Below are positions 39,030 to 63,365 of a stretch of 64,000 nucleotides of DNA, in pieces (within the stretch, counting starts at the first letter, position 1; every line of letters starts with the position of its first letter). The position numbers and the translations under genes were made by a program. The stretch is from Acidimicrobiaceae bacterium (lineage in GTDB: Bacteria; Actinomycetota; Acidimicrobiia; Acidimicrobiales; Aldehydirespiratoraceae), in assembly GCA_028819005.1 (NCBI GenBank), contig JAPPMP010000005.1:212246-276245 (forward strand), written 5' to 3'. The notes under the pieces were generated by a model. It was given only the letters and a program-made list of their open reading frames with translations, had not been told where the DNA came from and ran no database searches.

Positions 39030-39926
39030 GTGACTTCTTACGATGACTTCGAGCGCACGCCCGGCGGGGCTGTTCTCATGGACGGAAACCTGCTGCGCGA
39101 TGAGATTGTGGCAGCCATACGCGCAGAGATTGAATCGCTGCGCAACCCCGAGGTTTGTCTTGCCACCGTGCTGGTGGGCAGCGACAGACCGAGCCAGATC
39201 TATGTTCGCAACAAGCATCGCAAGGCCCAGGAAGCGGGGATGGCGTCGCGCCATGTGGAACTGGGCGAAGATGCGACGCAGGACGAGGTCGAAGCAGCGG
39301 TCGGCGATCTGGCGGCTGACCCGTCGGTCCACGGCATTCTTGTGCAACTTCCCGTTCCCGTCGGGATCGACGCCGAAGCGGTGCTCGATTTGATCCCACC
39401 CGAGAAAGATGTCGACGGCTTGACCGAACGGTCGATGGGCCGACTAGTCCGCGGTCGTTTGGGGCACGTTCCCTGCACGCCGTTGGGAGTGATGGAACTT
39501 CTGGAGCGTTACGGAATCGAGACCAGCGGCAAACGGGCAGTCGTCATCGGACGCTCCACACTGGTCGGCCTGCCTCAGGTGCTGTTGCTGGGCCGCAAGG
39601 GCTGCGATGCCACTGTGACGCTCGCCCACAGCCGAACGGCCGATCTGGCAGGATTGTGCCGACAGGCAGACATCATCATCGCTGCGGCGGGAATGGCCCG
39701 ATTGGTGACCGCAGACTTTGTGAGCCCAGGTGCGGCTGTGGTCGACGTGGGCATCTCCCGCACCGAGGCGGGCATCGTCGGCGATGTCGACTTCGACAGT
39801 GTGCAGGACGTCGCGGGAGCAATCACCCCGATGCCGGGGGGCACCGGTCCCATGACGATCGGCTGCCTGCTCAAGAACACGCTGGCCGCAGCCCGGATGA
39901 TGGGTGCAATCGGGTCCGGAAGCTAA
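39030..39926 (+). CDS. folD: Methylenetetrahydrofolate dehydrogenase/cyclohydrolase FolD
   Basis: A 298-residue bifunctional enzyme that interconverts 5,10-methylene-THF, methenyl-THF and 10-formyl-THF. Signatures are VGSDRPSQIYVRNKHRKAQEAG (catalytic Lys), GILVQLPVP, PEKDVDGL, PCTPLGVMELL, VVIGRSTLVGLP (NADP site) and MPGGTGPMTIGCLLKNTL. GTG at 39030 gives a short extra N-terminus (MTSYDDFERTPGG) before the fold; an ATG at 39078 is an alternative. Together with fhs (42122-43819) it links methylene-THF to formate and ATP. Confidence 0.96.
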   Translation: MTSYDDFERTPGGAVLMDGNLLRDEIVAAIRAEIESLRNPEVCLATVLVGSDRPSQIYVRNKHRKAQEAGMASRHVELGEDATQDEVEAAVGDLAADPSVHGILVQLPVPVGIDAEAVLDLIPPEKDVDGLTERSMGRLVRGRLGHVPCTPLGVMELLERYGIETSGKRAVVIGRSTLVGLPQVLLLGRKGCDATVTLAHSRTADLAGLCRQADIIIAAAGMARLVTADFVSPGAAVVDVGISRTEAGIVGDVDFDSVQDVAGAITPMPGGTGPMTIGCLLKNTLAAARMMGAIGSGS

Positions 39927-39929
39927 CGT

Positions 39930-41189
39930 TCAGCTCGGACTCAGGTGGTCGGTGGCGCCTACTCCGAATACCTGCAAGAACACGCCGGCCGGCGCCTTCG
40001 GGTAGAGGAAACTCGATTTCGGGGGCATCAGTTCTCCGCTCGCGGCGACTGCCATGATGTCGGTGATGTCTGTCGGGTAGACCAGTAGGCCCACGAACCC
40101 GTCGGTGTCGCAACGAGCCGTCAACTCCTTGACTCCAGTCGGCGCCGGAACGTAGTCGATGTCGCTGTCCTCGCGCAGCTCGTCTACGCCGAGAACTCTG
40201 CCGATGACTTCGACGCGGAGCCTCTCGACATCGAGCGAAGCCAGAGTGCTGGAGCTGTCCGGGGGATCGAGGCGCAGCCGGAACCAACAACCCTGGTGGT
40301 AGACGCCGACTTCGCCTCTTGAACGCGGTTGAGCCGCCCAGGCACTGTCGACCGCGCTGATGGTTCCCACGGCCTGCAGGGCGGCGACCAACTCTGCTGT
40401 GGAGCGTCGCGCCGAATCGGGTGCTCTGCGATGAAAGGCCTCGACCCGCAGATGGTCGTGGGGAAACAATACTGCGAGGGTCCGAGAGAAGGAGATGTTG
40501 CCCTGATGCGCGTTGCGGGCCCCGATTGCCGCAGCGCATCGATGATGGCCGTCCGTGACGAACAACTCCAGATCCTCTAGCAGCGGTTGGATGCTTGAAG
40601 TTTCCTCTGTGCCTAGAGTCCACACTTGGTTCCTGATTCCCTCTGTCACGACGTCGATGTCTGGTGTGGCCATGGACGCTGCTGTGAGCAGCTGCTGCAG
40701 TTCCGGCATCGCCACATGGGTCAGAGATATCGGCGATGAAGTCGCGCCGACGGAGTTGAGATGGTCGGTCAACAGAGAGGCCCGTTCGGGACGCACGTTC
40801 TCATGGGTGAGAACCCGTCCATCGTGCAGCCCTTCGATGTCGAGGGCTCCTACAATGCCGATCTGTGAGAAGGGCTCTTGAGATCGTCCGTCTCCAGAGG
40901 AGCTCATCCGGTAAACGTAGAAGGCGGCGTGGTCGCTGGGTTTGAAGGCGTCGGCGGAGAGGATCTGTCGAAAGGTTCCTGTGCTGAGCGCGACGAGTTC
41001 GTCTATATCGCATTCCGGGGACAAGTCCTCAGGAGAACGTGTCACCCCCAGGTAGCTGAACGGGTTGCCTTCGACGACGCCTCGGCGCTGCTCGGGGGTT
41101 TTGGAGTCGGTTGCGCTCGCGATCACCCTCTCAGCCCATTCGGGTCGTATCAGCCAACCCTGGAACGGCGCAAGAAGGGGGGAGCTCAT
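39930..41189 (-). CDS. DUF1015 family protein
   Basis: A 419-residue member of the DUF1015 family, which has been linked with ParB-like serine kinases. Diagnostic segments are LFVTDGHHRCAAAIGARN (family: ADGHHRYETA) and the C-terminal LMPPKSSFLYPKAPAGVFLQVF. The family is often found near phosphoserine or serine/glycine genes in bacteria; that would fit the one-carbon neighbourhood, but function here is inference. It is convergent with folD (3 bp between stop codons) and 12 bp downstream of the metF-like gene on the same strand. Confidence 0.8.
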   Translation of the reverse strand: MSSPLLAPFQGWLIRPEWAERVIASATDSKTPEQRRGVVEGNPFSYLGVTRSPEDLSPECDIDELVALSTGTFRQILSADAFKPSDHAAFYVYRMSSSGDGRSQEPFSQIGIVGALDIEGLHDGRVLTHENVRPERASLLTDHLNSVGATSSPISLTHVAMPELQQLLTAASMATPDIDVVTEGIRNQVWTLGTEETSSIQPLLEDLELFVTDGHHRCAAAIGARNAHQGNISFSRTLAVLFPHDHLRVEAFHRRAPDSARRSTAELVAALQAVGTISAVDSAWAAQPRSRGEVGVYHQGCWFRLRLDPPDSSSTLASLDVERLRVEVIGRVLGVDELREDSDIDYVPAPTGVKELTARCDTDGFVGLLVYPTDITDIMAVAASGELMPPKSSFLYPKAPAGVFLQVFGVGATDHLSPS

Positions 41190-41201
41190 GGTGTTGCGGG
41201 G

Positions 41202-42077
41202 TTATCTGAGCGTGGCTTGTTGCCACCGAAGCGTGGCGGCCACCTGGTTGAAGGTGAACATATGAAGGCCCTCGATGCCCAAAGAGCCGAACTCGTCGGC
41301 TAGGGGGTCGATGACGTCGCTGGGGTTGTAACCGGCCGAAGAGAATAGCTTCAGCAGGCCAGTCCTGTTCTTCTGGACGTATCTCAGAGAGGCTCCCACG
41401 CCTAGCCGCATACCCATGCGGATGAGCTTCGCTCGGTCCACGACGCCCGCGACCCCGAGATGCACCGGCATGGTCAGGCCTTCGGTGCGTTGCGAGGTCA
41501 GCCAGGAAACGATCGTGTCAGTCGAAAAGCACATCTGCGTGGACGCGTGTCCCTTGATTCCCGCCTCGCCGAACAGCTCCTGTTTGTCGATCAACGCTTG
41601 GCGCAATGCCGAATCGTCGATGAAGGCGTGACCGTCGGGGTAGGAGGACACGCCCACCGCAGTGATGTCTCCGGCGCCGATTTCGAGTAGGGGCTTCAGC
41701 AGCGACATGGCGTCGGGATAGTCGCCTGCGTCCTGCGCATCGCCTGCGATGCAGAAGATCTCCCGGAGCCCGAGTTGCTTGATGCGCGCTGCTATCGAGC
41801 GCAGGTGTGCCGCGTCGGCGACCTTGCGAGCCGCGAGATGGGGAATCGGGCGATGACCAAGGTCGAGCAGTTCGGCACACACGTCGAGGGTGTCCTCGAG
41901 AGGCTTGACCGGGGATGCGGTCACACTGACACGGGCATTGGCGGGAAGCTGCTGGATCGCCTCGGGCAGGCTCTTCAGCGGGATGACTTCATAGGTCATG
42001 TCGGAAATCGCGGCCCGCGCCGCTGGGGAGCTGATCGCTTGGGGGCCGGGGCGCAGGATCTTGGCGAGTGGGTTCAC
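41202..42077 (-). CDS. Methylenetetrahydrofolate reductase-like protein
   Basis: A 291-residue TIM-barrel protein of the MetF type. The segments ISDMTYEVIPLKSLPEAIQQLP, ARVSVTASPVKPLEDTLDVC, REIFCIAGDAQDAGDYPDAMSLLKPL and GHASTQMCFSTDTIVSWLTSQR align with the flavin- and folate-binding strands of MetF. The classic TWGAGG-type segment is replaced, so activity is less certain than for E. coli MetF. The GTG at 42077 has GGAG four bases upstream. It lies 44 bp downstream of fhs on the same strand and is probably co-transcribed, consistent with a folate-linked role. Confidence 0.8.
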   Translation of the reverse strand: MNPLAKILRPGPQAISSPAARAAISDMTYEVIPLKSLPEAIQQLPANARVSVTASPVKPLEDTLDVCAELLDLGHRPIPHLAARKVADAAHLRSIAARIKQLGLREIFCIAGDAQDAGDYPDAMSLLKPLLEIGAGDITAVGVSSYPDGHAFIDDSALRQALIDKQELFGEAGIKGHASTQMCFSTDTIVSWLTSQRTEGLTMPVHLGVAGVVDRAKLIRMGMRLGVGASLRYVQKNRTGLLKLFSSAGYNPSDVIDPLADEFGSLGIEGLHMFTFNQVAATLRWQQATLR

Positions 42078-42121
42078 TTGACTCCAGTGTTCAGGACAGG
42101 CCCTCTGATGGGGCGTTGGTT

Positions 42122-43819
42122 CTAAGAAAGACCGACGACGTTGCCGTCGGCGTCAATGTCGATGGACTTGGCGGCCGGGATCTTTCCCAGGCCGGGCATG
42201 GTCCGCATATCGCCGCAGAGGGGGTAGATGAAACCGGCGCCGACACTCGCTCTTACCTCGCGTACAGGCAGGGTCCAGCCGGTGGGGGCGCCCTTCAATG
42301 CGGGGTTGGAACTGATGGAGAGATGCGTTTTGGCTATGCACACGGGCAGATCGGCGAAACCCGCCTCCGTATAGGTGGCCAGCTGTTTGTCAGCCTGGGC
42401 GGTGTACTCCACATCGTCTGCGCCGTAGACCTTGGTGGCCACCGCATGGATCTTGTCCTTGAGCGATGCCTCGCTCGGATACAGCAGTTGGAATTCGCTC
42501 GGTTCAGCCGCCGCCGCAGCCACCGCTTCGGCCAACTCGGCAGCCCCGCGTCCTCCATCTGAGAAGTGAGTGGACACCGCCGCGCGGGCGCCGTACTCAT
42601 CGGCAATCTCACCGATCGCAGCTATGTCGCCGGGATGGTCCTCGGGGAAGACATTGATAGCGACCACCGGCGTGCAACCGTGTACCTGCATGTTCTCAAG
42701 CTGTTTGCGCAGGTTGTCGCCGCCCATGTGGACTTCGTCGGGATTCTCGGCCAGCAACGCCTCGGGCAGAGGCCTTCCTGCAACGATCTTGTGCTTGCCG
42801 GAGTGGGCTTTGAGGCCTCGCACCGTGGCGACGAGCACGGCGGCGTCGGGCGCGATCCCGGAGTAACGACACTTGATGTTGAAGAATCGCTCCGCTCCCA
42901 TGTCTGCGCCGAATCCTGCCTCGGTCAGCAGGAACTCGCTGGTATGGATGCCGATCTGGTCGGCGATGATCGAACTGTTGCCGGTGGCGATGTTGCCGAA
43001 AGGCCCGGTGTGAACCAGCGCCGGAGTGTTCTCCAGCGTCTGCATCAGGTTGGGTTTGATGGCCTCTTTCAAGATCACGGCCATCGAGCCCGCCGCGCCG
43101 ACGTCTTCGGCGGTGATCGGAGTCCCGGCCTTGTTGTAGCCCAGCACGATCCGCCCCAGCCGGGAACGCAGGTCTTGGAGCGAAGTGCACAGCGACAGGG
43201 CGGCCATGACTTCGGATGCGGCCGTGATGTCGAATCCCGTTTCACGGGGGACGCCGTCGAGCCGTCCGCCGAGACCGATCACGGCATTGCGCAGGGCGCG
43301 GTCGTTGACGTCGAGCACGCGTCGCCAGGTGATGTTGTGAACGTCGAAACCTGCTTCGTTGCCGTGGTAGATGTGAGCGTCGAGCATTGCCGAGCAGAGG
43401 TTGTGGGCCGCGGTGACGGCGTGCATGTCGCCGGTCAGATGGAGGTTGAACAGCTCCATGGGCACGACCTGGCTGTAGCCCCCTCCCGCGGCGCCGCCCT
43501 TTATCCCGAACGTCGGCCCCATCGAGGGCTGGCGGATGGCGATCGTGGCCGTTCTGCCGATGTGCTGGAACGCTTGGCCGAGACCGACCGTCGTGGTCGT
43601 TTTGCCTTCGCCAAGCGGCGTCGGGGTGATGGCTGAAACGACGACGTACGCCGCTCTGGGGCGGTCGCTCATCTTCTCGATGGCGTCGAGCGAGATCTTG
43701 GCTGCGCCCACGCCATAGGGCTCAAGACACTCAGCCGGGATACCGGCGCTGTGCGCGATGTCGGTCAGAGGTTTGAGCTTTGCCTGGTTGGCTATTTCTA
43801 GGTCGCTGGGAAAGGCCAT
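42122..43819 (-). CDS. fhs: Formate-tetrahydrofolate ligase
   Basis: A 565-residue formyl-THF synthetase that interconverts formate, THF and ATP with 10-formyl-THF. The P-loop is ITPTPLGEGKTTTTVGL, followed by QPSMGPTFGIKGGAAGGGYSQVVPMELFNLHLTGD, NLMQTLENTPALVHTGPFGNIATGNSS and the C-terminal SVGAGFIYPLCGDMRTMPGL. AGGAG lies five bases before the ATG. In a catabolic setting it would run toward formate and yield ATP, handing formate to the dehydrogenase at 55122-59819. A 27-bp palindrome lies upstream. Confidence 0.97.
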   Translation of the reverse strand: MAFPSDLEIANQAKLKPLTDIAHSAGIPAECLEPYGVGAAKISLDAIEKMSDRPRAAYVVVSAITPTPLGEGKTTTTVGLGQAFQHIGRTATIAIRQPSMGPTFGIKGGAAGGGYSQVVPMELFNLHLTGDMHAVTAAHNLCSAMLDAHIYHGNEAGFDVHNITWRRVLDVNDRALRNAVIGLGGRLDGVPRETGFDITAASEVMAALSLCTSLQDLRSRLGRIVLGYNKAGTPITAEDVGAAGSMAVILKEAIKPNLMQTLENTPALVHTGPFGNIATGNSSIIADQIGIHTSEFLLTEAGFGADMGAERFFNIKCRYSGIAPDAAVLVATVRGLKAHSGKHKIVAGRPLPEALLAENPDEVHMGGDNLRKQLENMQVHGCTPVVAINVFPEDHPGDIAAIGEIADEYGARAAVSTHFSDGGRGAAELAEAVAAAAAEPSEFQLLYPSEASLKDKIHAVATKVYGADDVEYTAQADKQLATYTEAGFADLPVCIAKTHLSISSNPALKGAPTGWTLPVREVRASVGAGFIYPLCGDMRTMPGLGKIPAAKSIDIDADGNVVGLS

Positions 43820-43873
43820 TTTTGCTCCTGCGCGGGCGGCGCAGTCGGCGCCGCACGCTCATTGCTTCCGGTT

Positions 43874-43920
43874 GAATCGTTCCGTATTGCGGAACGATTC
43901 CGCGATACGGACCCATTGTA
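43874..43920 (-). promoter_or_regulatory. fhs promoter with tandem palindromic operator
   Basis: Bases 43874-43900 form a perfect 11-bp-arm inverted repeat centred on GTTCCG-TATTG-CGGAAC (43879-43895). A second, weaker half-overlapping site TCCG-CGATA-CGGA lies at 43899-43911, its centre 18 bp away. On the minus strand TACAAT (43915-43920) is a good -10 placed so that transcription would start within the operator, a position suited to repression. The motif resembles IclR-family operators; similar sequences lie upstream of formate dehydrogenase and of the IclR gene. Confidence 0.65.
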
Positions 43921-44202
43921 GCCCTTTCATGCTGGTCGTGTGTTTGCCAGATCTGCAGAAATTTGCGCGTTGTTGAAACCGTCCGGAATGAACGTCTCAC
44001 GGCTTTGCAACGGCTCTGCCTGCTAGGGGCAATATCTCGTCCGTTGAACGCAGTGCTGAAAAAAGCGAGCTTCTAATCCTGCTGTCGCGTGCAAACTGAA
44101 CGATCGTCCAGTATTGTTTCCGCGGGTTGTGCCGCAACGCACGCACTGCGATGCCGGCGGCACCGACCGGCACGACAATCGACTTCAGAATAGAGTCCAA
44201 CC
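43921..44202. other. Gene-free stretch upstream of the DMGDH-like gene
   Basis: About 280 bases without a convincing coding region on either strand. It holds the upstream part of the fhs promoter and must hold the promoter of the divergent gene at 44203. I looked for a glycine or folate riboswitch core and did not see one. GAATAGAGTCCAACC precedes the GTG start and offers only a weak ribosome site. Confidence 0.5.
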
Positions 44203-46752
44203 GTGAGCGAATTCCCCACCAGAGCTAATGTCGTAGTGATCGGCGCAGGGATCGTCGGCAACTGCCTCGTCGGACATCTCGCCCGACTCGGCTGGCAAGA
44301 CCTCGTCCTCGTTGAGAAAGGGCCGCTTCCCAACCCCGGCGGCTCGACCGGGCACGCATCGAACTTCATCTTCCCGGTCGACCACAACAAGGAAATGGCT
44401 CTGCTCGGTGAGCAGAGCGCCAACCAGTACCGCGACCTGAACCTGTCGGTGGACTCCGGGGGCATCGAAGTAGCCCGCACCCAGGAGCGCATGGACGAAC
44501 TCGAGCGGCGCATGACCTCAGCGGTGGCATGGGGTATCGAAGCTCACCTGCTCACCCCCGCCCAGGTGAAGGAACTGGTGCCCTACATCAACTCCGATGT
44601 CATCCTCGGCGGCTTCTACTGCCCCACGGTCTCGGTGGTCGACTCGCTTGAAACGGGCACCGTCATGCGCAAGGAAGCCGTCGAGAAAGCTGATTGCAAG
44701 GTCTTTGCCAACACCGAAGTGCTCGACCTCGTCACCGACGACACGCCCCGGCCCAACGGCCGCCGCAAGATCAAAGCAGTGGTCACCGACAAGGGCGCCA
44801 TCGAGGCCGAATACGTGATCATCGCCTGCGGCGTCTGGTCCAATCGCATCGCCAACATGGCCGACGCCTACATCCCGCTCGTGCCCGCCGTGCACCAGAT
44901 GGCTGACGTCGGCCCGATAGACGTCCTCGCGGAGACCAACAACGAGATCGGCTACCCGATCGTGCGCGACATGGACACCTTCTGCTACGAGCGGCAGTCG
45001 GCGGGATCGATGGAGGTTGGCTCCTACGGCCACCGGCCCATCCTGCACCACCCCGACGAGATCCCCTCCAACGAGGAGGCCGCGCTGTCTCCAACGGAGA
45101 TGCCGTTCACTCCCGACGACTTCGACCAGCAGATGGAGGAAGCGATCGAGCTGATGGACATGCTCGGCGACGCCGAGATCAAGTACGCCATCAACGGCCT
45201 GCTGTCGCTGACACCCGACACCATGCCCTGCCTCGGCGAGATCCCCGACGTGGAGGGCCTCTGGTCGGCCGCTGCCGTGTGGGTCAAAGAAGGCCCGGGC
45301 ATGGCCGAGGTGGTAGCGGAGTGGATGACTCACGGCTACCCGCGGGTGATCGACGCCCACGGCGCGGACATAGCTCGCTTCTACGACGAAGAGAAGAGCG
45401 ACGAACACATCTGGGCGAGGGCCCACGAGCACTTCAACAAGACCTATGGCATCGTCCACCCCGCCGAGCAGTGGGAGTCTCGCCGTCATCTCGTGGAGTC
45501 GCCGTACCGTTCCCGCCAGGAGGCGCTCGAAGCGGAGTTCTTCCAAGCCCGCGTGTGGGAACGGCCCCAGTGGTACAACTCCAACGCTGATCTGTGCGAG
45601 CGCTACGACCTCGAGCCGCGTCAGGTCGAGTGGGACAACCGCTGGTGGAGCCCCATAACCATCGGTGAGCACCTGAACCTGCGTGAGAACTGCGGTGTGG
45701 TCGACCTGTCGGCCTTCCAGATCTACGAACTGCATGGGCCGGGAGCCGTCGAGTACGCGGACCGACTTGCCGTCAACAAGATCGATGTTGCCGTGGGCCG
45801 GTCCATTTACACGCCGTGGCTCAACGCCGACGGCGGCTTCCACTCCGACCTCACCATGATGCGCATGGGCGAAGACCGGGTGAGGATCGTCACCGGCGTG
45901 TTCGACGGTGGACGCGACGAGTTCTGGACCCGCAAGCACATGCCCAACGACGGTTCGGTGACCTTCACCAACGTCACCACACAGATCACCACCCTCGGAC
46001 TCTGGGGTCCCAAAGCTCCGCAAGTCTTGGCACAACTCACAGATCACGACCTGAGCCAAGCCGGCTCGCCCTATGGCTCGATCATCCCGATCGAACTCGA
46101 CTGCTCTGCAGGCGGAGGACAGGCCCGAACGATCCAAGCTCACCTGTTCCGCATCTCCTACGTGGGCGACACAGGCTGGGAGATCTACACGGATTGGAGC
46201 AACGGCCCGGCGCTGTGGGATGCCCTCTTCGCGGCCGGCCGAGAGCTCGGCATCCGTCCAACCGGCGGCGGCGTCTACGGCACCTCGGGCCGGATCGAGA
46301 AGGGCTATCGCTTGATGGGCGCTGAACTCGAGAGCGAATACAACCCGGTTGAAGCGGGACTCGCCCGGCCCAGGGTAAAAACCTCGGATTTCATTGGCCG
46401 CGAGCCCTATCTCAAAGCCCGTGAAGCTGGAGCGGAGGTCCAGTGTGTGACGCTTGCTGTCGAGGATCAAATCGACAGCGCTGGGCGCACCCGGCACATG
46501 ATGGGGGGCAACGAACCCATCGTCGACCTCAACGGCGAGCGCATCGTGGATTCCCACGGAAGGGTGTCGCGGGTGACCTCGGCAGGGTATGGGCCGTCGG
46601 TCGGCAAGCACCTCCTCATGGGGTATGTGCCCAACGAATTGGCCACAGGGGGCACCCAACTTCAAGTCATGTACATGAACGAGTTGTTCCCGGTGACTGT
46701 CGTAGGCCCGGGTTCCGCCTTCGACCCCGAAGACTCACGTCTCAAGAGCTGA
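44203..46752 (+). CDS. DMGDH/SARDH-like FAD oxidoreductase with GcvT domain
   Basis: An 849-residue flavoprotein. Residues 1-390 are an FAD-dependent amine oxidoreductase (VVVIGAGIVGNCLVGHLARLG dinucleotide motif; GSTGHASN where related enzymes attach FAD to His). A short FAO_M linker domain follows, and residues about 470-849 form a GcvT-like aminomethyl-folate domain (GVVDLSAFQIYELHGPGAVEYADRL, DTGWEIYTDW, GYRLMGAELESEYNPVEAGL). Family members demethylate dimethylglycine or sarcosine and transfer the methylene group to THF. The etfBA genes follow directly and would accept its electrons. The exact substrate is not readable. GTG start at 44203. An antisense open frame of about 700 codons on the other strand is a compositional shadow. 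Confidence 0.9.
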   Translation: MSEFPTRANVVVIGAGIVGNCLVGHLARLGWQDLVLVEKGPLPNPGGSTGHASNFIFPVDHNKEMALLGEQSANQYRDLNLSVDSGGIEVARTQERMDELERRMTSAVAWGIEAHLLTPAQVKELVPYINSDVILGGFYCPTVSVVDSLETGTVMRKEAVEKADCKVFANTEVLDLVTDDTPRPNGRRKIKAVVTDKGAIEAEYVIIACGVWSNRIANMADAYIPLVPAVHQMADVGPIDVLAETNNEIGYPIVRDMDTFCYERQSAGSMEVGSYGHRPILHHPDEIPSNEEAALSPTEMPFTPDDFDQQMEEAIELMDMLGDAEIKYAINGLLSLTPDTMPCLGEIPDVEGLWSAAAVWVKEGPGMAEVVAEWMTHGYPRVIDAHGADIARFYDEEKSDEHIWARAHEHFNKTYGIVHPAEQWESRRHLVESPYRSRQEALEAEFFQARVWERPQWYNSNADLCERYDLEPRQVEWDNRWWSPITIGEHLNLRENCGVVDLSAFQIYELHGPGAVEYADRLAVNKIDVAVGRSIYTPWLNADGGFHSDLTMMRMGEDRVRIVTGVFDGGRDEFWTRKHMPNDGSVTFTNVTTQITTLGLWGPKAPQVLAQLTDHDLSQAGSPYGSIIPIELDCSAGGGQARTIQAHLFRISYVGDTGWEIYTDWSNGPALWDALFAAGRELGIRPTGGGVYGTSGRIEKGYRLMGAELESEYNPVEAGLARPRVKTSDFIGREPYLKAREAGAEVQCVTLAVEDQIDSAGRTRHMMGGNEPIVDLNGERIVDSHGRVSRVTSAGYGPSVGKHLLMGYVPNELATGGTQLQVMYMNELFPVTVVGPGSAFDPEDSRLKS

Positions 46753-46786
46753 TGTTCCGAGCTAATGATTCAAGGTTGACCAGGCC

Positions 46787-47566
46787 ATGAGGATTCTCTG
46801 CTGCGTCAAGCGCGTGCCGGCGCCCGGTGCCAAGATCAACGTCACTGCCGACGGCTCCGATGTCGATGCCGCTCATTTGGGTTTCACGACCAGTCCACAC
46901 GAAGAATGCGGTGTCGAAGGGGCTGTACAACTCCGTGAACAACACGGTGGAGAGGTCACCGTGCTCACAGTCGGCCCTGTCGAAGCAGCAGAACAACTGC
47001 GCTACGCCGCCTCGGTCGGGGCAGATCACGGCGTCTTGATCCCCGGCGACGGAGCGTGGGATCCGCAGCGGACCGCGGCCGTCATCGGCGAGGCGATCGA
47101 TGTGCTCGAGTCCGAGAACGGAGAGCCGTTCGATCTCGTCCTCTTCGGCAACGAGTCGGCAGATTCCGGTGGCTTCCAGGTCGGGATACGGGTGGCGCAT
47201 TCGCTGGGGAGGCCCATCGTCAACGGAATCAAGGGAATCGAAGTGTCCGGTGACGGGAGCGGAACCGGCACGGTCACGGCCCGTCGGGCGATCGACGGCG
47301 GCTTCGAGGTTTACGAACTCCCACGGCCATGCGTCCTAGGGGTCAAAGAAGGGCTCAATCTGCCCCGATACCCGACTATGAAGGGCCGCCTGAAGTCCAA
47401 GAAACTTGAGATCCGCTCGCTCGACATTGACGCCGCTCAAGGTGGTCAAGGCCGGATTCGGCTGCATCGCCCGCCCGAGCAGGTGTCCGAGACGGTCATC
47501 CTCGGAGACGGCCCTGATGCGGCCGCCGCGGTGGTCGACGTGCTCGAAGAGTTGGGGGTGCTCTGA
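46787..47566 (+). CDS. etfB: Electron transfer flavoprotein beta subunit
   Basis: A 259-residue EtfB. Characteristic segments are MRILCCVKRVPAPGAKINV, SPHEECGVEGAVQLRE, LVLFGNESADSGGFQVGIRVA (family: GxxxxDxxxxQVGxxxA) and LPRYPTMKGRLKSKKLE. With EtfA it forms the soluble FAD/AMP heterodimer that carries electrons from dehydrogenases to the quinone pool. It starts 34 bp after the DMGDH-like gene, which is its likely electron donor. The stop TGA overlaps the etfA ATG by one base. Confidence 0.94.
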   Translation: MRILCCVKRVPAPGAKINVTADGSDVDAAHLGFTTSPHEECGVEGAVQLREQHGGEVTVLTVGPVEAAEQLRYAASVGADHGVLIPGDGAWDPQRTAAVIGEAIDVLESENGEPFDLVLFGNESADSGGFQVGIRVAHSLGRPIVNGIKGIEVSGDGSGTGTVTARRAIDGGFEVYELPRPCVLGVKEGLNLPRYPTMKGRLKSKKLEIRSLDIDAAQGGQGRIRLHRPPEQVSETVILGDGPDAAAAVVDVLEELGVL

Positions 47567-48531
47567 TGCTGCTGGTAGTGCTCGAACATGACCGAGGAGC
47601 GCTTGCTGAAGCGGCCCGTGAGGCTCTCACCTTCGGCCGGACATTGGCCGAGAAGATGGATGAAGACCTTGAAGCCGCTCTTATCGGCGCAGACGATGAC
47701 GCGCTGGTCACCGAGGCCGGCGACTATGGCGCTGAGGTGGTCCACACCTGTGTTCATGAAGTGCTGAGCGACTACGGGCCGGATGCGTACGGTGCTGCGG
47801 TGGCCCAAATGGTCGCGGAACTCGAACCTTCCGCTGTGCTGGCCTGTGGATCGGATCGAGGCAACGAGGTCATGGCGCAGGTTGCGGCCCGTCTTGATGC
47901 TCCGTTCGCGGCCAACTGTGTTGACGTCACCCCCGGTATCCCCTGGACTATGACACGGGTGCAGTGGGGTGGCTCTCTGCTTGAAGACTCCAGCCTCGAC
48001 GTCGACGTTGCGCTCCTCACCTGCGGCCTTCATGCGGTGGCCGCTCAACCCGGAGACTCTGTCGACGCCGACACGGAGACGTTCGACGCTGACCTCGACG
48101 AGAGCCACCGCGTGACCGTCGTCAAGGATCGCACGGTGCTCCAAGCCGGTGTGACTCTGCCCACCGCTCCGGTTGTGTGCGGCGGCGGCCGCGGGGTCGG
48201 TTCAGCTGAGGGTTTCGCGCAACTCGAGGAATTGGCTGAGCTTCTCGGTGGACGGGTCGGATGCTCCAGGGCTGTGACCAACCTCGGCTGGCGCCCCCAT
48301 TCCGACCAGGTCGGTCAAACCGGCACACGCATCGCCCCGGAGATATATATCGCCTCGGGAATCTCGGGGGCGATCCAGCATTGGGTGGGAGCGATGGCCA
48401 GCAAACACATCTTGGCCATCAATACCGACCGGGAAGCCAACATGGTCGTGAAGGCCGATTGGGCGGTGATCGCCGATCTCCACGAAGTGATCCCTGCCAT
48501 CACCGCCGAAATCCGCAGCCGGAAGGGCTAG
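47566..48531 (+). CDS. etfA: Electron transfer flavoprotein alpha subunit
   Basis: A 321-residue EtfA. The C-terminal FAD domain is clear: VVCGGGRGVGSAEGFAQLEELAELLGGRVGCSRAVTNLGW, QVGQTGTRIAPEIYIASGISGAIQHWVGA, and INTDREANMVVKADWAVIADLHEVIPAI. It is translationally coupled to etfB (TGATG). The membrane acceptor ETF-quinone oxidoreductase is not in the window. Confidence 0.95.
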   Translation: MLLVVLEHDRGALAEAAREALTFGRTLAEKMDEDLEAALIGADDDALVTEAGDYGAEVVHTCVHEVLSDYGPDAYGAAVAQMVAELEPSAVLACGSDRGNEVMAQVAARLDAPFAANCVDVTPGIPWTMTRVQWGGSLLEDSSLDVDVALLTCGLHAVAAQPGDSVDADTETFDADLDESHRVTVVKDRTVLQAGVTLPTAPVVCGGGRGVGSAEGFAQLEELAELLGGRVGCSRAVTNLGWRPHSDQVGQTGTRIAPEIYIASGISGAIQHWVGAMASKHILAINTDREANMVVKADWAVIADLHEVIPAITAEIRSRKG

Positions 48532-55053: not shown

Positions 55054-55111
55054 CGCGTGATAATCACACGCGATTCGGGGCGGAAAGACACACCTGTTCC
55101 GCATTGCGGTA
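55054..55111 (+). promoter_or_regulatory. Regulatory region of the formate dehydrogenase operon
   Basis: GATAAT (55059-55064) is a plausible -10 and lies inside the perfect palindrome GTGAT-A-ATCAC (55057-55067), itself inside CGCGTG-N7-CACGCG (55054-55072). Downstream, GTTCCGCATTGCGGTAT (55096-55112) resembles the fhs operator GTTCCGTATTGCGGAAC with a degenerate right arm, placed between the predicted transcription start and the GTG at 55122. Confidence 0.5.
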
Positions 55112-55121
55112 TTGTTCCAAC

Positions 55122-57176
55122 GTGGAGAACGTTGCTGTAGACGACAGCGAAGCGAACACCCGACCAGCCCCCGAAGGACCGACTCGACAGGGGCTCAATC
55201 GCGGCAACCGCCGTCAGCGTTACGTCAAGCCCACCGAGCGGATCACGACTCCGATGGTGCGAGAAAACGGCGAACTGCGTGCCGCTTCATGGGATGAGGC
55301 ACTCACCCGCGCGGCGCAGGGTCTCGCCCGGGTCCGGGACCGGTACGGCGGCGAAGCGTTCGGCATGTTCAGCTGCTCCAAGTCGACCAACGAGATGAAC
55401 TACGCGGCGCAGAAGTTCATTCGCTGCGCGATGCGGTCCAACAACATCGACTCCTGCAATCGAACTTGACACGCACCTTCGGTCGTCGGTCTGGCGACTG
55501 TGTTCGGAGCAGGAGGAGGAACATCTTCATATGAAGAGGTGGAAGAGACCGATGTCGTCCTGTTGTGGGGTTCCAACGCCCGGGAGGCGCATCCGATCTA
55601 CTTCCATCATCTGTTGAAGGGCCTCGACAACGGAGCGAGAATGTACTCGGTCGATCCCCGCCGCACGAGCTCCTCGAAGTTCGCGGACGCCTGGCTCGGG
55701 CTCAACGTAGGCACCGACATCGCGCTGGCGAATGCCGTCGGGCGCGAGATCATCGCTGCGGGACTGCACAACACCGACTTCATCGCCCATTCCACACAGG
55801 GTTTTGAGCACTACAAGGCCGCGGTCGAGCAATACACGCTTGAGGCGGCCGAGGAGATCACGGGTGTGCCCGCCCACGCCATCCGCGAACTGGCACACGA
55901 TTACGCGACCGCTGACACCGCGCAGATTCTGTGGACCTTGGGCATCACCGAACACCACAACGCGGTTGAGAACGTCCTGTCATTGTGCAACCTGGCGCTG
56001 CTCACCGGGCATGTCGGCCGCTGGGGATCGGGGCTGGTACCGCTGCGCGGCCAGAACAACGTGCAGGGAGGCGGCGACATGGGTGCGCTGCCCAACAAGT
56101 TCCCCGGATTCCAAGACGTCGAGGATCCGGTTGCGCTCGCCAAGTTTGAAGCCGCCTACCACATGTCGCTGCCGAACAAACCCGGACTGCACCTCACCTT
56201 GATGTTCGAGGCGATGGAGCGGGGTGAAATCAAGGGGCTCTATGTGATCGGCGAGAACCCTGCAGATTCAGAAGCAGATGTGGCACATGCCCGCAAACTG
56301 CTCGACGGACTCGACATTCTCGTCGTGCAGGACATCCTGATGACCCGAACAGCCGAAATGGCTGACGTCGTGTTGCCTGCAGCGGTGGGATGGGCCGAAT
56401 CCGAGGGAACGGTCACTTCATCAGAAAGACGGGTGCAACGGGTTCGCGCCGCCGTCTCGCCACCTGGAGAGGCTCGTCAGGACACCGACATCATCGGCGA
56501 CCTCGCGAACCGTCTCGGCGTCGATTGGGGCACACCTACTCCCCAAGACCTGTGGGACGAACTCCGATCGCTGTCGCCGCTGCACGCGGGGATGAGCTGG
56601 GAGCGCCTGGAGTCTGAGGGCGGGCTCCAATGGCCCTGCAGAGACTCAGACGACCCCGGCAGTGCGTTCCTGCACGGCTGGCTGTGGGCCGACGACCTCG
56701 AGGGCCGCAATCCGGCGTCGTTCAGTGCGTGCCACCATGAGGGTCCCAAGGAACAGCTCAGCGACGAGTTCCCGCTTCGACTCACGACCGGACGAGCGCT
56801 CGACAGCTACAACACCGGCGTGCAGTCAGGGGGCTACGCGTCACCGATCCGCTATGGAGCCGGCGTCGACGTCAATCCGGCCGACGCTGCGCGACTCGGC
56901 CTCGGCGATGGCGACCGGGTGCGGGTATGTTCTCCCCGCGGCTCAGTCGAGACCAGTGTCCGGATCCAGCCCGACATTCCCGAGGGGCTCACCTTCACCA
57001 CCTTCCATTTCCCTGAACTGGTCGATGTGAACCAACTCACCAACCCCGAATGGGATCCGCGGTCCGGCACAGCCGAATTCAAAGCGGCGGCCGTGCGGAT
57101 AGAACCTGTGGAGAACCAACGACCGGAGCAGCTGACTCCGAGCACCGACCCCGCGACCACACCTGCTGATGGCTGA
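55122..57176 (+). CDS. fdhA: Formate dehydrogenase catalytic subunit, selenocysteine-containing
   Basis: A 684-residue molybdopterin oxidoreductase read through an in-frame TGA at 55467-55469 as selenocysteine 116. The context is NNIDSCNRT-Sec-HAPSVVGL, which matches the active site of formate dehydrogenases (Sec or Cys followed by His). A SECIS-like hairpin follows the codon. Downstream segments VLLWGSNAREAHPIYFHHLLKG, GMGA-like cofactor strands, IGENPADSEADVAHAR and the C-terminal molydop-binding domain (LRLTTGRALDSYNTG) are normal. The protein lacks the N-terminal CxxCxxxC [4Fe-4S] domain; that domain is encoded at 58959-59819. Start GTG at 55122 is chosen; TTG at 55104 is possible. The stop overlaps the next gene by 8 bp. 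It oxidises formate to CO2. Confidence 0.9.
55467..55500 (+). promoter_or_regulatory. UGA selenocysteine codon and SECIS-like hairpin
   Basis: After the TGA (55467-55469), bases 55482-55498 fold as GUCGUC-GGUCU-GGCGAC: six pairs closed by the pentaloop GGUCU, with two further outer pairs possible. The loop sequence GGUCU and its distance of about 18 bases from the UGA agree with the SelB-binding hairpin of E. coli fdhF. All bases are also coding in frame. Confidence 0.85.
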
Positions 57177-58962
57177 TCTTTTTATCGGCGATGACATCGC
57201 GGACGAGATTGAGACTGCTGCAGTGAAAGCCGCCATCGGGGTACCGACCGCAGTGGTCCGCGAGACTGAGCGTCTCGTCTACGGCGGTGCGAACCGTCGC
57301 CATGACCACCGCCATCTGCTTCTTCCGGCCCTTCATGGGTTGCAGAACGCCAAGGGATGGATCAGCCCCGGTGGCCTCAACCACGTCTGTGAGCTGTTGC
57401 AGGTACCGCCGGCGGAAGCTTACGGGGTCGCAACGTTCTATGAGATGTTCCGCCTCGACGAACCCGATCACCCCTCCGAGGTCGCTCATGTCACTCATGT
57501 CTGCGTTGACGCGGCCTGCCAGATCGCGGCCAACGAAGAACTGATCGCCGAGCTTGAGTCGAACGGGGAGCACGTTCATCGCTCGCCCTGCCTCGGACAA
57601 TGTGAACGGGCTCCGGCTCAGTTCCGCCAAGGAATCGGCAGGCCTGATTCTGTGCCTGCGGATGCTGTAGAGGTTGCCAGGCAGATACCGCAGCAGGGGG
57701 ATCCGTCGCTGAGGCTGCTGCGCAATGTCGGCGTGGTGGACCCCACCTCGCTCGATGCCTACCGGGCCAACGGCGGTTATCTGGCGCTTGCCAAAGCGAT
57801 TGAGATGGGGCCGGCTGAGGTGTGCACTGCAGTGGCTGACTCCGGCCTCTCCGGTCGCGGCGGAGCGGCTTTCCCCACTGGCGTCAAGTGGCGAGCTGTG
57901 GCCGCTGAGCGGGGGCGACCCAAACATGTTGTGGCCAACTGCGATGAGTCCGAGCCGGGCACGTTCAAGGACCGGATCGTGATGGAGCAAGACCCCTTCG
58001 CGGTGATCGAGTCGCTCACGCTCGCGGGTTTCGCGACAGGCGCCGAGAACGGTTGGATCTATATTCGCGGCGAGTATCCATTGGCCACCGCAAGGCTTGA
58101 GAATGCTGTGATCCAAGCTCGTGAGGCGGGCTTGCTCGGCGACGACGCGGCCGGGTCGGGGCATCATTTCGACATCGAGATCCGCAGGGGCGCCGGCGCT
58201 TACATCTGCGGCGAGGAAACCGCTCTGTTCGCTTCACTCGAGGGGTTCAGGGGTGAGCCGCGCAGCAAACCGCCGTTCCCGACGACGCATGGCTTGTTCA
58301 GAGAGCCGACCGCGATCAACAACCCTGAGACGCTGATCAACACTCTCGGCATCGTGCTCCACGGGGCGGAGGACTATCGAAGCAGAGGGACGGAGCGATC
58401 GCCGGGAACGAAGCTGCTGTGTGTGAGCGGAAGGGTGTCCGAACCAGGTCTCTACGAGGTGGAGTTCGGCACAACGCTCGGTCAGGTGCTGGATCTCGCG
58501 GGTCCTCTTACTGGGAGCGGCACTCTGGCTGCGGTGCTGATGGGTGGCGCGGCCGGGTCATTCGTAGGACCTGACGCTCTCGACATGCCTCTCACGTTGG
58601 AAGACACGCGTGAACGCGGCACCACGCTGGGTTCGGGTGTGGTGATGGCGTTCACCGATGAGATCGATATGACCGGCGTGCTCGTGCGCATCGCGGAGTT
58701 CTTCAAGAACGAGTCGTGCGGTCAATGTGTGCCTTGCCGTGTCGGCACTGTCCGCCAACACGAGACAATGGTGCAGATTCAAGCGAAGGGTTCTTTGTCG
58801 GCACAGCGCCGCAGTCTGGTTGACGACATCGCCGAGGTGATGGTCGACGCTTCTATTTGCGGACTCGGCCACACGGCGGCTTCTGCTGTCAATTCTGCTA
58901 TGGACCTTGGCCTGCTGTCGAAGTCCAACGGGGAAGGCCCCCAATTCAGGGAGAGATCGTGA
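57169..58962 (+). CDS. Fused NuoE/NuoF-like (FdsG-FdsB) diaphorase subunit
   Basis: A 597-residue fusion of the two NADH-linked subunits of soluble formate dehydrogenase. Residues 1-160 are the 24-kDa thioredoxin-like part with [2Fe-2S] ligands Cys112, Cys117 (HVCVDAACQ) and Cys141, Cys145 (SPCLGQCERAP). Residues about 200-597 are the 51-kDa FMN/NAD part: SGLSGRGGAAFPTGVKW, NCDESEPGTFKDR, GAGAYICGEETALFASLEG, and the [4Fe-4S] ligands ESCGQCVPCRVGT plus SICGLG. It passes electrons from the catalytic subunit to NAD+. The ATG lies inside the end of the catalytic gene, and its own stop overlaps the start of the third subunit. Confidence 0.94.
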   Translation: MADLFIGDDIADEIETAAVKAAIGVPTAVVRETERLVYGGANRRHDHRHLLLPALHGLQNAKGWISPGGLNHVCELLQVPPAEAYGVATFYEMFRLDEPDHPSEVAHVTHVCVDAACQIAANEELIAELESNGEHVHRSPCLGQCERAPAQFRQGIGRPDSVPADAVEVARQIPQQGDPSLRLLRNVGVVDPTSLDAYRANGGYLALAKAIEMGPAEVCTAVADSGLSGRGGAAFPTGVKWRAVAAERGRPKHVVANCDESEPGTFKDRIVMEQDPFAVIESLTLAGFATGAENGWIYIRGEYPLATARLENAVIQAREAGLLGDDAAGSGHHFDIEIRRGAGAYICGEETALFASLEGFRGEPRSKPPFPTTHGLFREPTAINNPETLINTLGIVLHGAEDYRSRGTERSPGTKLLCVSGRVSEPGLYEVEFGTTLGQVLDLAGPLTGSGTLAAVLMGGAAGSFVGPDALDMPLTLEDTRERGTTLGSGVVMAFTDEIDMTGVLVRIAEFFKNESCGQCVPCRVGTVRQHETMVQIQAKGSLSAQRRSLVDDIAEVMVDASICGLGHTAASAVNSAMDLGLLSKSNGEGPQFRERS

Positions 58963-59819
58963 CCGTTACTGAAGTCAGCGTGAACCTCACGATCAACGGA
59001 CAGGCCGTTTCGGTGCCTGAGGGCACTTCGATACACAAGGCCTGTGAGTCGGCCGGTATCGAGACGCCGACCCTGTGTTGGGCCGAGAACCTCACCCCGG
59101 TCAACGTCTGCCGGGTCTGCGTGGTGGAGGTGGAAGGCTCTCGAGCGCTTGTTCCCTCGTGCGCGCGCGCCGTTGAGGACGAGATGGTTGTGCAGACCGA
59201 CTCCCCTCGGGTTCGTCACAGTCGCAAGATGGTGCTCGAGTTCCTCGGTTCGAGTGTCGACTTGAGCCAGGCGACCGAGTTGGCCGAGTGGATGCGCCAC
59301 TACGGCGCGGACCCGGATCGATATGACCAACCCGGCCTGGTGGCCGAGCGGATCAGCGAGGAGCCGAAGATTCAGGACGACCTCTACATCCGCGACTACG
59401 ACAAGTGCGTCTTGTGCTACAAGTGTGTTGAGGCTTGCGGCGACGACGCGCAGCACACCTATGCCATCGCGGTCAGCGGACGTGGTTTCGATGCGCGGAT
59501 TTCCACGGAGTTCGACACTGTATTGCCTGATTCAGCGTGCGTTTACTGCGGCAACTGCATCGGAGTGTGTCCGACCGGGGCGATCCAGTTCAAGACCGAG
59601 TTCGATATGCGGGCAGCGGGGGAGTGGCGCCCTGACGAACAGGACGTCACGACGACGGTCTGCTCGTTCTGCGGTGTCGGCTGCAACCTCGAGTTGCACA
59701 CCCAAGACGACAGGATTGTGAAGGTCACCTCGCCGGCAGATCACTCCGTCACTCACGGCCACCTCTGCATCAAGGGCCGTTTCGGCTGGCAATACGTCCA
59801 ACCCCCCACCCGCAAGTGA
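58959..59819 (+). CDS. Stand-alone N-terminal Fe-S half of formate dehydrogenase alpha
   Basis: A 286-residue electron-transfer subunit. In order: a [2Fe-2S] ferredoxin domain (Cys40, 51, 54, 68), a NADH-dehydrogenase-G-type segment, two [4Fe-4S] clusters (DKCVLCYKCVEACGD at 149-162; CVYCGNCIGVCPTG at 194-207), and a complete molybdopterin-type [4Fe-4S] domain (VCSFCGVGC with Cys235, 238, 242, and Cys270 in HLCIKGRFGWQYVQ). The last domain is normally the start of the catalytic chain; here the gene ends right after it (PPTRK). It is the exact missing half of FdhA at 55122-57176. GTG at 58959 has GGGAGAG upstream and overlaps the preceding stop. Confidence 0.92.
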   Translation: MTVTEVSVNLTINGQAVSVPEGTSIHKACESAGIETPTLCWAENLTPVNVCRVCVVEVEGSRALVPSCARAVEDEMVVQTDSPRVRHSRKMVLEFLGSSVDLSQATELAEWMRHYGADPDRYDQPGLVAERISEEPKIQDDLYIRDYDKCVLCYKCVEACGDDAQHTYAIAVSGRGFDARISTEFDTVLPDSACVYCGNCIGVCPTGAIQFKTEFDMRAAGEWRPDEQDVTTTVCSFCGVGCNLELHTQDDRIVKVTSPADHSVTHGHLCIKGRFGWQYVQPPTRK

Positions 59820-61740: not shown

Positions 61741-61823
61741 CCTAACGGTTGCGGAGAACAGCCGAAGATCACAGGCGGTTCGGGGCTCCTGACGAGGTTG
61801 GAACTGGTAGTGTGACGGGTCAC

Positions 61824-63365
61824 ATGCACACGGAGTCTTCACCTCGTCGCCGGGGTCGTCGGGAGCGACCATCCGGCCCGATTGCGCCTGCGCAACCTGA
61901 TTGGAATCTGCATCGACGACTTTTCGCTCCGACCGCTGTGATCTCCGACGATGAACTCGAGTCGATCCATGACTCTTCGCTGCTCGTGCTGAGAGACGTC
62001 GGCATGGATTTTCTCCATCCGAAAGCGACCGAGATGCTGGCCGCGGCGGGTGCTGACGTTGATGGTGAGAGGGTTCGTTTCGATCCGGAGATGGTCACTG
62101 AATTGATCAGCACCGCACCAGCGGAGTTTGTGATGCATGCGCCCAACCCTGCTCGCGATCTGGTGATCGGGGGGGACAGTGTGGTGTTCGGTTCGGTTGC
62201 GAGCGCGCCCAACGCAGCCGACCGCAAAGGAGGGCGCCGTACCGGCAACCGCGCCGATTTCCAGAGTCTCGTCAGGCTGGTTCAGTGCCTCAACTCGGTC
62301 CAGACCCACGGTGGTTATCCAGTGGAGCCGATCGATATCCACCCCTCGGTACGCCACTTGGAAGCGTTCCGTGACCTTCTGACGCTGTCGGACAAGGTGG
62401 TGGACGCATATTCGCTCGGCGCGCAGCGCAACATCGACTGTCTGGAGATGGTGCGAATTGTGCGCGGGGTCAGCGACGCAGAACTCGACGAGCAGCCGTC
62501 GATCCACTCGGTCATCAATGTCAGTTCGCCTCTGCGTCTCGACGGACCGATGATCGAGGGCATCTTGGAGTACTCGTCGCGCAATCAGGTGATTGTGCTC
62601 ACGCCGTTCACGCTGGCGGGAGCGATGGCTCCGGTGACTGTGGCAGGCGCGGTGGTGCAGCAGAACGCGGAAGCGTTGGCGGGAATCGCTTTCACCCAGC
62701 TGGTTCGGCCCGGTGCGCCGGTCGTCTACGGCGGTTTCACCTCCAATGTCGACATGCAGTCGGGTTCTCCCGCGTTCGGCACGCCCGAATACATGCAGTC
62801 GGCGATGCTCGGAGGGCAGCTGGCACGCCGTTACAACCTGCCGTACCGCTCGTCCAATGTGTGTGCTGCGAACGCGGTCGACGCCCAAGCCGGTTATGAG
62901 TCGGTGTTCTCGCTGTGGGGCGCGATCATGGGCGGCGCCAACCTCGTGTACCACGGCGCGGGTTGGATGGAGGGCGGGCTTCACGCAAGCTTCGAGAAGA
63001 TGGTCATCGACAACGACCTGTTGCAGAGCGTGGCCGCCTTCTTGCAGCCGCTGGTCGTCGACGCTGCATCGATGGCCCTGGAGGCGATTGCCGATGTCGG
63101 ACCCGGCGGCCACTTCTTCGGCACACAGCACACCCAGGACCGCTACCGGAGTGCCTTCTTCAAACCGGCGGTGTCTGACTGGCGCAATTACGAGTCTTGG
63201 GAGGAGGCCGGGTCGCCCACCGCACTGGATCACGCCGAACGCTTGGTTGCCGCCCACCTTGAGGCCTATCAGCCGCCTCATATGGACGATTCGATTCGAG
63301 AAGAACTGCATGCATTCGTTGATCGGCGCGTCGCCGAAGGCGGGGTGGAGACGGACTACCAATAG
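61824..63365 (+). CDS. MttB-family methylamine methyltransferase (non-pyrrolysine)
   Basis: A 513-residue member of the trimethylamine methyltransferase (MttB) superfamily. The TIM-barrel segments (SDDELESIHDSSLLVLRDVGMDFLHPKA, VFGSVASAPNAADRKGGRRTGN, TPFTLAGAMAPVTVAGAVVQQNAEALAGIAFTQLVRPGAPVVYGGF, GTPEYMQSAMLGGQLARRYNLPYRSS) are clear. There is no in-frame amber codon, so it is a non-pyrrolysine member. Such enzymes act on glycine betaine or other quaternary amines with a corrinoid protein, but no corrinoid partner is seen in the window. ATG 61824 is preferred; GTG 61812 is possible. A Rieske oxygenase gene follows after 38 bp. The stop lies in a tandem repeat. Confidence 0.88.
   Translation: MHTESSPRRRGRRERPSGPIAPAQPDWNLHRRLFAPTAVISDDELESIHDSSLLVLRDVGMDFLHPKATEMLAAAGADVDGERVRFDPEMVTELISTAPAEFVMHAPNPARDLVIGGDSVVFGSVASAPNAADRKGGRRTGNRADFQSLVRLVQCLNSVQTHGGYPVEPIDIHPSVRHLEAFRDLLTLSDKVVDAYSLGAQRNIDCLEMVRIVRGVSDAELDEQPSIHSVINVSSPLRLDGPMIEGILEYSSRNQVIVLTPFTLAGAMAPVTVAGAVVQQNAEALAGIAFTQLVRPGAPVVYGGFTSNVDMQSGSPAFGTPEYMQSAMLGGQLARRYNLPYRSSNVCAANAVDAQAGYESVFSLWGAIMGGANLVYHGAGWMEGGLHASFEKMVIDNDLLQSVAAFLQPLVVDAASMALEAIADVGPGGHFFGTQHTQDRYRSAFFKPAVSDWRNYESWEEAGSPTALDHAERLVAAHLEAYQPPHMDDSIREELHAFVDRRVAEGGVETDYQ

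Follow-up and report, generated by a model that had tools for sequence, protein, structure and literature searches.

How does a formate dehydrogenase (FDH) pass electrons out of its active site when the catalytic chain has no iron-sulfur (Fe-S) domain of its own? This question is raised by positions 55122-59819 of a 64,000-nucleotide stretch of DNA, hereafter the window, from an Acidimicrobiaceae bacterium (assembly GCA_028819005.1, contig JAPPMP010000005.1, positions 212,246 to 276,245). Taken as a whole, the locus very probably encodes a soluble, NAD(P)-linked FDH of three subunits that uses selenocysteine (Sec) and a Mo/W-bis-molybdopterin guanine dinucleotide (bis-MGD) cofactor, and whose electrons would leave through an Fe4S4 domain carried by the third subunit. 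The three genes are as follows.

55122..57176, + strand: catalytic subunit, bis-MGD molybdopterin domain of FdhF type; 684 codons with UGA as putative Sec116; no Fe4S4 domain
57169..58962, + strand: NuoE-NuoF fusion with a [2Fe-2S] thioredoxin-like domain, a flavin mononucleotide (FMN)/NADH domain and a [4Fe-4S] domain
58959..59819, + strand: iron-sulfur subunit with a [2Fe-2S] domain, two ferredoxin-type [4Fe-4S] domains and a C-terminal Mop-type Fe4S4 domain

The separation of the Fe4S4 domain, in the third gene, from the catalytic gene is real. The catalytic protein (P0004, 55122-57173) matched the Pfam families Molybdopterin at residues 40-464 and Molydop_binding at 552-656, with no Pfam match to Molybdop_Fe4S4. 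The middle protein (P0002, 57169-58962) matched 2Fe-2S_thioredx, Complex1_51K, SLBB and NADH_4Fe-4S; the third (P0003, 58959-59819) matched Fer2_4, then a Fer4-type pair, then Molybdop_Fe4S4 at residues 230-281. These coordinates and domains agree with a first-pass annotation of the window, which had described a catalytic half without an N-terminal Fe-S domain and a NuoE-NuoF fusion lying between it and the Fe-S gene. The two halves are complementary. In the NCBIfam model TIGR01591 (Fdh-alpha, 672 positions), the catalytic half matched positions 22-672 at 648.4 bits, which does not reach the cut-off of 666.25, and the third gene product matched positions 1-49 at 55.4 bits. Similarly, residues 296-932 of Rhodobacter capsulatus FdsA (6tg9) were covered by the catalytic half and residues 24-303 by the Fe-S half.

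The genes are tightly packed. The NuoE-NuoF ATG at 57169 precedes the catalytic stop at 57174-57176, an overlap of 8 nt, and the GTG of the Fe-S gene at 58959 overlaps the NuoE-NuoF stop at 58960-58962 by 4 nt (GTGA). The catalytic start was taken as GTG 55122, a TTG at 55104 being a possible alternative. As had been proposed, the break falls at a natural junction: in the relatives described below, the last residue of the Fe-S half lies at a median of 10 residues past GRFG (range 4-186). The catalytic frames pick up again at RLTTP, and their possible start codons lie between a few residues and a few tens ahead of that motif (about 39 in the window). A 'YVxPxxR' motif at both edges of the junction was considered as a remnant of operon duplication and dropped, as it is not kept in most of the listed relatives.

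Using translation table 11, the catalytic region is two open reading frames (ORFs), 55104-55469 and 55500-57176. The earlier description of 55122-57176 as one gene overlooked an in-frame TGA at the FDH selenocysteine site; it holds if that TGA is read as Sec, which gives a product of 684 residues, and does not hold for a plain ORF. Two features were recognized at this site.

55467..55469, + strand: in-frame UGA, predicted Sec codon (Mo/W ligand), with the active-site His next; TGA in 122 of 122 Sec-type loci
55467..55507, + strand: predicted bacterial selenocysteine insertion sequence (bSECIS) element, stem 55482-55487/55493-55498 with the apical loop GGUCU between; judged by conservation

The TGA stands directly ahead of the active-site His in the context CNRT-U-HAPSVVGLA, at the same site as the TGA of Escherichia coli fdhF. 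Within the order, 58 of 148 genomes had a catalytic match at E <= 1e-100 and 39 of 148 had one at >= 58% identity; every one of the latter matches that extends across the site carries TGA, the site lying outside two contig fragments. For wider comparison, we chose 126 loci (119 distinct) by similarity of the catalytic half alone. The Sec-type set comprised 122 of these loci, representing 115 distinct catalytic cores and 95 distinct 45-mers at the site. The loop GGTCTG (positions 22-27) was identical in all 122, and all six stem pairs were standard in 121. Two-sided stem changes occurred at two pairs, from C-G to G-C in four loci and from G-C to A-T in two; the latter come with amino-acid changes. 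The Gly codon in the loop was GGT in 122 of 122 loci, versus 18% of Gly codons in these genes, although we claim no probability for this since the loci are related.

Because the TGA and the loop are conserved, the stem shows compensatory changes, Cys-type relatives have lost the element and the genome carries Sec machinery, TGA 55467-55469 can be assigned as a recoded Sec codon. In all four Cys-type split loci, the loop Gly codon was GGG or GGA and the stem was broken at one or more pairs. The machinery comprised tRNA-Sec (64 bits), SelB (276 bits) and SelA (403 bits), and FdhD (207 bits) was also present; all were above cut-off, and the SelA gene adjoins that of SelB. Among 14 control genomes, the same cut-offs were exceeded by tRNA-Sec in five, SelB in two, SelA in one and FdhD in eight. 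A TGA that truly terminates translation, in a pseudogene undergoing decay or through an error of sequencing, would fit the two table-11 ORFs. However, a TGA at the same codon in every Sec-type locus from many assemblies, the conserved loop with its invariant GGT codon, the altered loop and broken stem of the Cys-type loci, and the Sec machinery make this explanation exceedingly improbable. As judged from its sequence, the locus is real, conserved and functional-looking.

The bSECIS element was judged by conservation because the Rfam scan of the window yielded no bSECIS match; its sole match over threshold was a tRNA (tRNA-Ala by ARAGORN). The folding energy of the region alone was not unusual (z -0.61). 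In E. coli fdhF, GGTCTG is equally spaced from the TGA, and the bases at the six stem positions used here do not pair; the E. coli stem lies in another register. The Cys-type loci (L185-L188, in genomes G687, G500, G470 and G656) come from actinobacterial genomes of 6-10 Mb and encode a split FDH with Cys for Sec and a decayed SECIS. Three of them were included in the catalytic tree and nest within the Sec clade. By these features, they would represent a natural Sec-to-Cys conversion.

The arrangement of catalytic gene, NuoE-NuoF and Fe-S gene is the standing order of its clade, in Acidimicrobiia and in other actinobacterial lineages. In none of the 126 loci did CxxCxxxC or GRFG occur upstream in the catalytic frame. 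The Fe-S half was seen as a downstream gene in 109 loci (104 distinct); the remaining 17 reach a contig end, belong to a genus with the Fe-S gene further off, or, in one case (L130), lack the gene in the bases seen. Of the loci from the order, 29 of 32 had the full arrangement on one strand (in two of these, the contig ends within the Fe-S gene). By score, split-type matches occurred in 74 of 247 genomes of the class and 40 of 396 of the phylum sample; 33 of those in the phylum sample lie outside the class, and the 12 of these whose loci were read all had this order. A scan of named genomes covered the best 80 of 579 relatives. In these 80, TGA was found in all and the full order in 68; in 11 the contig runs out before the Fe-S gene is complete, and the remaining one is L130. 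By title, 71 are actinobacterial, including Ilumatobacter nonamiensis YM16-303 and Candidatus Microthrix, and nine are titled only 'bacterium' or as another group. The contig of I. nonamiensis stops shortly past the catalytic gene. A plasmid search gave matches in 237 records, all of them below 60% identity.

Fused forms, in which NuoF and Fe-S domains lie upstream of FdhA, also occur within this class and order, where they make up a separate lineage. Thus, the survey of homologues suggested by the first-pass annotation found fused and split forms, in separate lineages. Two further loci (L208 and L209, genomes G610 and G415) have open frames of ~1390 aa with Fe-S pieces some 490 aa apart, Fe4S4 and a Sec catalytic domain, and a second Mop-type stretch on the opposite strand.

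Does the third subunit carry what an electron path would need? Its ligand motifs are listed below with the equivalent clusters of the R. capsulatus enzyme.

59076..59162, + strand: [2Fe-2S] ligands Cys40, 51, 54 and 68 (A5 equivalent); invariant in 17 of 17
59406..59570, + strand: two CxxCxxCxxxC motifs, Cys150-160 and Cys194-204 (A3/A2 equivalents)
59661..59768, + strand: Mop-type Fe4S4 ligands Cys235, 238, 242 and 270 (A1 equivalent), then Lys272; motif and Lys in 109 of 109

Among the 109 Fe-S halves, the Fe4S4 motif and the following Lys were present in all, and the [2Fe-2S] motif and the two ferredoxin motifs each in 108. In R. capsulatus FDH, electrons pass through clusters A1, A2, A3, A5 and B6, and the A4 cluster (His117, Cys121, Cys124 and Cys130) sits at the dimer interface, away from this path (PMC7171172). 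Ligand motifs for all of the direct-path clusters are present in the window proteins. The stretch between the [2Fe-2S] and the first ferredoxin motif, where the His-Cys3 ligands of A4 would lie, contains no Cys in 100 of 109 Fe-S halves and one Cys in eight, the last being not evaluable; A4 is therefore absent. A single regular-expression match to His-Cys3, in L122, lay by eye inside a ferredoxin motif. The direct chain is thus complete and the off-path A4 gone, so that dimerization of the FdsABG kind would not be expected. The earlier description of the third gene as the complete Fe-S half accordingly stands for its domains and its A1, A2, A3 and A5 motifs and fails for A4.

On the catalytic side, N-R-T-U-H and RGQNNVQG were invariant in 18 of 18 aligned sequences. 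The AlphaFold model of the catalytic half (predicted local distance difference test score, pLDDT, 80.7; predicted template modelling score, pTM, 0.82) superposed on FdhH (1fdi) and FdsA (6tg9_A), each with a template modelling (TM) score of 0.88, and its eight best Foldseek matches were all FDHs. Based on these features, formate would be oxidized at Sec116-His117 together with the arginine of the RGQNN motif in the first subunit. The first acceptor would be the C-terminal Fe4S4 cluster of the third subunit (Cys235/238/242/270, Lys272); from there, electrons would pass along the pair of ferredoxin-type clusters and the [2Fe-2S] cluster of that subunit, enter the NuoE-NuoF fusion at its [4Fe-4S], and reach NAD+ via FMN. 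In this scheme, the C-terminal domain of the third subunit would occupy the position held in one-chain enzymes by the N-terminal portion (FdhF) or the central portion (FdsA) of the same polypeptide. Formation of the complex, its docking geometry, NAD+ as acceptor and the direction of the reaction are likewise proposed rather than observed.

The complementary coverage of the two halves and the conserved ligands suggest that the Fe4S4 domain docks beside the cofactor; the Fe-S half alone models poorly (pLDDT 54.8). The FDH could alternatively be real with this cluster away from the bis-MGD, peripheral like N7 of complex I, and with electrons leaving by another route. Such an arrangement has a parallel in N7 of Thermus thermophilus complex I, an equivalent cluster that has no connection to the chain and is viewed as a relic (PMC7171172). 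Nevertheless, we consider it unlikely, given that the ligand motif and Lys are retained throughout the 109 Fe-S halves and that ferredoxin-type motifs able to link A1 to the chain are present. Moreover, no other proximal cluster is encoded in the upstream part of the catalytic frames, as none of them contains CxxCxxxC there. With the Fe4S4 motif in the third gene and none in the catalytic frame, the placement of the cluster nearest the active site on another polypeptide, as had been anticipated, is the arrangement predicted here. Across the clade, this is probably a natural form of the FDH/dimethyl sulfoxide reductase family with bis-MGD bound by one polypeptide and the proximal [4Fe-4S] cluster, with the Lys after its last Cys, held by another, so that the first electron step crosses a subunit interface, in a selenoenzyme that also lacks the His-Cys3 cluster.

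Among characterized enzymes, the closest in layout is FDH3 of the actinobacterium Actinomycetospora chiangmaiensis DSM 45062, a cytoplasmic Sec-FDH called NAD-dependent by its authors (PMC7176365). Its subunits are FdhA3 (640 aa, with Sec), FdhB3 (614 aa) and FdhC3 (316 aa), sizes that agree with the split layout and not with a one-chain FdsA (957-958 aa) or FdhF (715-743 aa). All three subunits were found by proteomics at 2.2- to 3.1-fold higher levels on 2-hydroxyisobutyrate than on acetone, and formic acid accumulated without added selenite and hardly with it (PMC7176365). We infer that FDH3 belongs to the same family; by this match of lengths, the split enzyme would already have been detected as a protein in one cultured relative. 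The first-pass annotation had allowed that homologues might share the gene order and yet form a different documented complex. The order is indeed shared, and the published three-subunit Sec-FDH is of the same enzyme kind (PMC7176365). The available text of that paper does not discuss a split Fe4S4 domain for FDH3, nor do the available portions of PMC10100899 and PMC8808070 mention the split form. Literature searches limited to open-licence papers returned no title or abstract describing it. The split of the proximal cluster has thus apparently gone unremarked in print.

Other systems resemble the window enzyme in part. R. capsulatus FdsABG(D) (6tg9) shares the on-path clusters A1-A2-A3-A5-B6, FMN and bis-MGD (PMC7171172). 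Its FdsA is also the best Protein Data Bank (PDB) match of the Fe-S half (155 bits). However, FdsA is one chain with the His-Cys3 cluster A4 at the dimer interface, whereas the window enzyme is split and without A4, and its NuoE and NuoF are fused, unlike those of FdsABG(D). The window enzyme further differs from FdsA in having Sec at the active site, where FdsA has Cys. The catalytic half was nearest to FdhF of the hydrogen-dependent CO2 reductase (HDCR; 7qv7), E. coli FdhH (1aa6/1fdi), methanogen FdhA (7bkb) and an F420-linked FDH (9t1s), at 476-514 bits; FdhF carries Fe4S4 at its own N-terminus, in contrast to the separate protein of the window. In MeFDH1 of Methylorubrum extorquens (7e5z/7vw6), the beta subunit (572 aa) aligns with residues 44-577 of P0002, spanning the NuoE and NuoF parts, but alpha is one chain of 989-995 aa, unlike the split alpha of the window.

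Several observations, in addition to the poor model of the Fe-S half, weigh against a three-subunit enzyme of the kind proposed. The three loci of the order with a different arrangement come from one genus (g57), in which the Fe-S gene lies about 11-15 kb after the catalytic start on the same strand; in the two loci read that far, NuoE-NuoF begins 9-13 kb after that start, beside the Fe-S gene. The metagenome-derived locus L130 has a split-type catalytic gene and NuoE-NuoF, but the roughly 450 bases between NuoF and the contig end contain no Fe-S gene; the gene may truly have been lost, may have moved, or may be missing through faulty assembly. FDH3 was likened to the window enzyme through its subunit sizes, the kind of enzyme and Sec rather than through its sequence, and since DSM 45062 has two other Sec-FDHs (PMC7176365), the response to selenium cannot be credited to FDH3 in particular. 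In loci L183 and L184 of g57 (also genome G056), NuoE-NuoF-FeS follow the catalytic Sec gene on one strand after gaps of about 7 and 11 kb; the third gene thus need not adjoin the first.

How did the split arise? In a midpoint-rooted catalytic tree of 64 sequences, one clade (100/100; 100% of 200 bootstrap trees) united all 30 split rows, namely the window and 29 of the 126 loci, and the Fe-S halves (27 loci and the window, four short sequences being left out) likewise formed a single clade (100/99). Because both trees recover one clade, the split most likely arose once among the sequences compared and is old in this phylum. The catalytic half appears nearer to FdhF than to FdsA: against it, HDCR FdhF scored 514 bits, the F420-linked FDH 492, methanogen FDH 482 and FdhH 476, with one-chain alpha types at 431 bits and below. 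In the tree, the split clade adjoins seven FdhF-like proteins (family f102) with Fe4S4 in frame and stands apart from FdsA-like fused proteins. The f102 loci (L197-L202 and L218) encode FdhF-like Sec enzymes, and that of L197 also has acetyl-CoA synthetase-like and GPR1/FUN34/yaaH genes.

Given an FdhF-like catalytic half, an FdsA split and permuted within its operon, as first proposed, is not the favoured history, and the order is standard in its clade. A true permutation, in which a fused NuoEF-FdhA operon was duplicated and each copy then lost the half kept by the other, seems doubtful. Fused operons of the form NuoE-NuoF-[FeS-Fe4S4-cat] do exist in the same order, class and phylum, and the single clade formed by each half would suit such a history. 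Against this, the nearest relatives of the catalytic half (f102, seven of seven rows) are FdhF-like with an in-frame Fe4S4 domain and not fused FdhA, and no NuoEF or Fe-S partner was found for them in the stretch fetched. A tree of the Fe4S4 domain alone (20 split loci, 59 columns) hinted at a mixed origin, which the approximately unbiased (AU) test on those columns did not set apart from permutation (p-AU 0.54). The alternative to permutation is such a mixed origin, in which an FdhF-type protein would have given up or lost its Fe4S4 domain on joining a NuoG-type Fe-S protein.

Elsewhere in the window, the following genes were noted.

39030-39926: FolD-like gene
42122-43819: formate-tetrahydrofolate ligase
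44203-46752: FAD/GcvT-domain dehydrogenase of dimethylglycine/sarcosine type
46787-48531: electron transfer flavoprotein subunits
61749-63365: MttB-family gene, matching 500 of 500 positions of Pfam MTTB, with no in-frame stop

The genes at 39030-48531 and 61749-63365 likely serve the oxidation of methylated amines or betaine. These neighbouring folate one-carbon genes suggest that the FDH serves methyl-group oxidation: it would burn the resulting formate, from folate to formate to CO2, with a gain of NADH.

Split FDHs are probably under-counted in Acidimicrobiia, as either the Sec codon or the split is enough to defeat automatic annotation. In the structures of FdhF and FdsA, the Fe4S4 and catalytic domains share one chain, and the split breaks that junction. 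If our reading is correct, the Fe4S4 domain would seem dispensable for the folding of the catalytic domain and for its uptake of bis-MGD, and the proximal cluster could be swapped or omitted by way of a separate added protein. Such a split would also bear on how complex-I-like and FDH modules were assembled.

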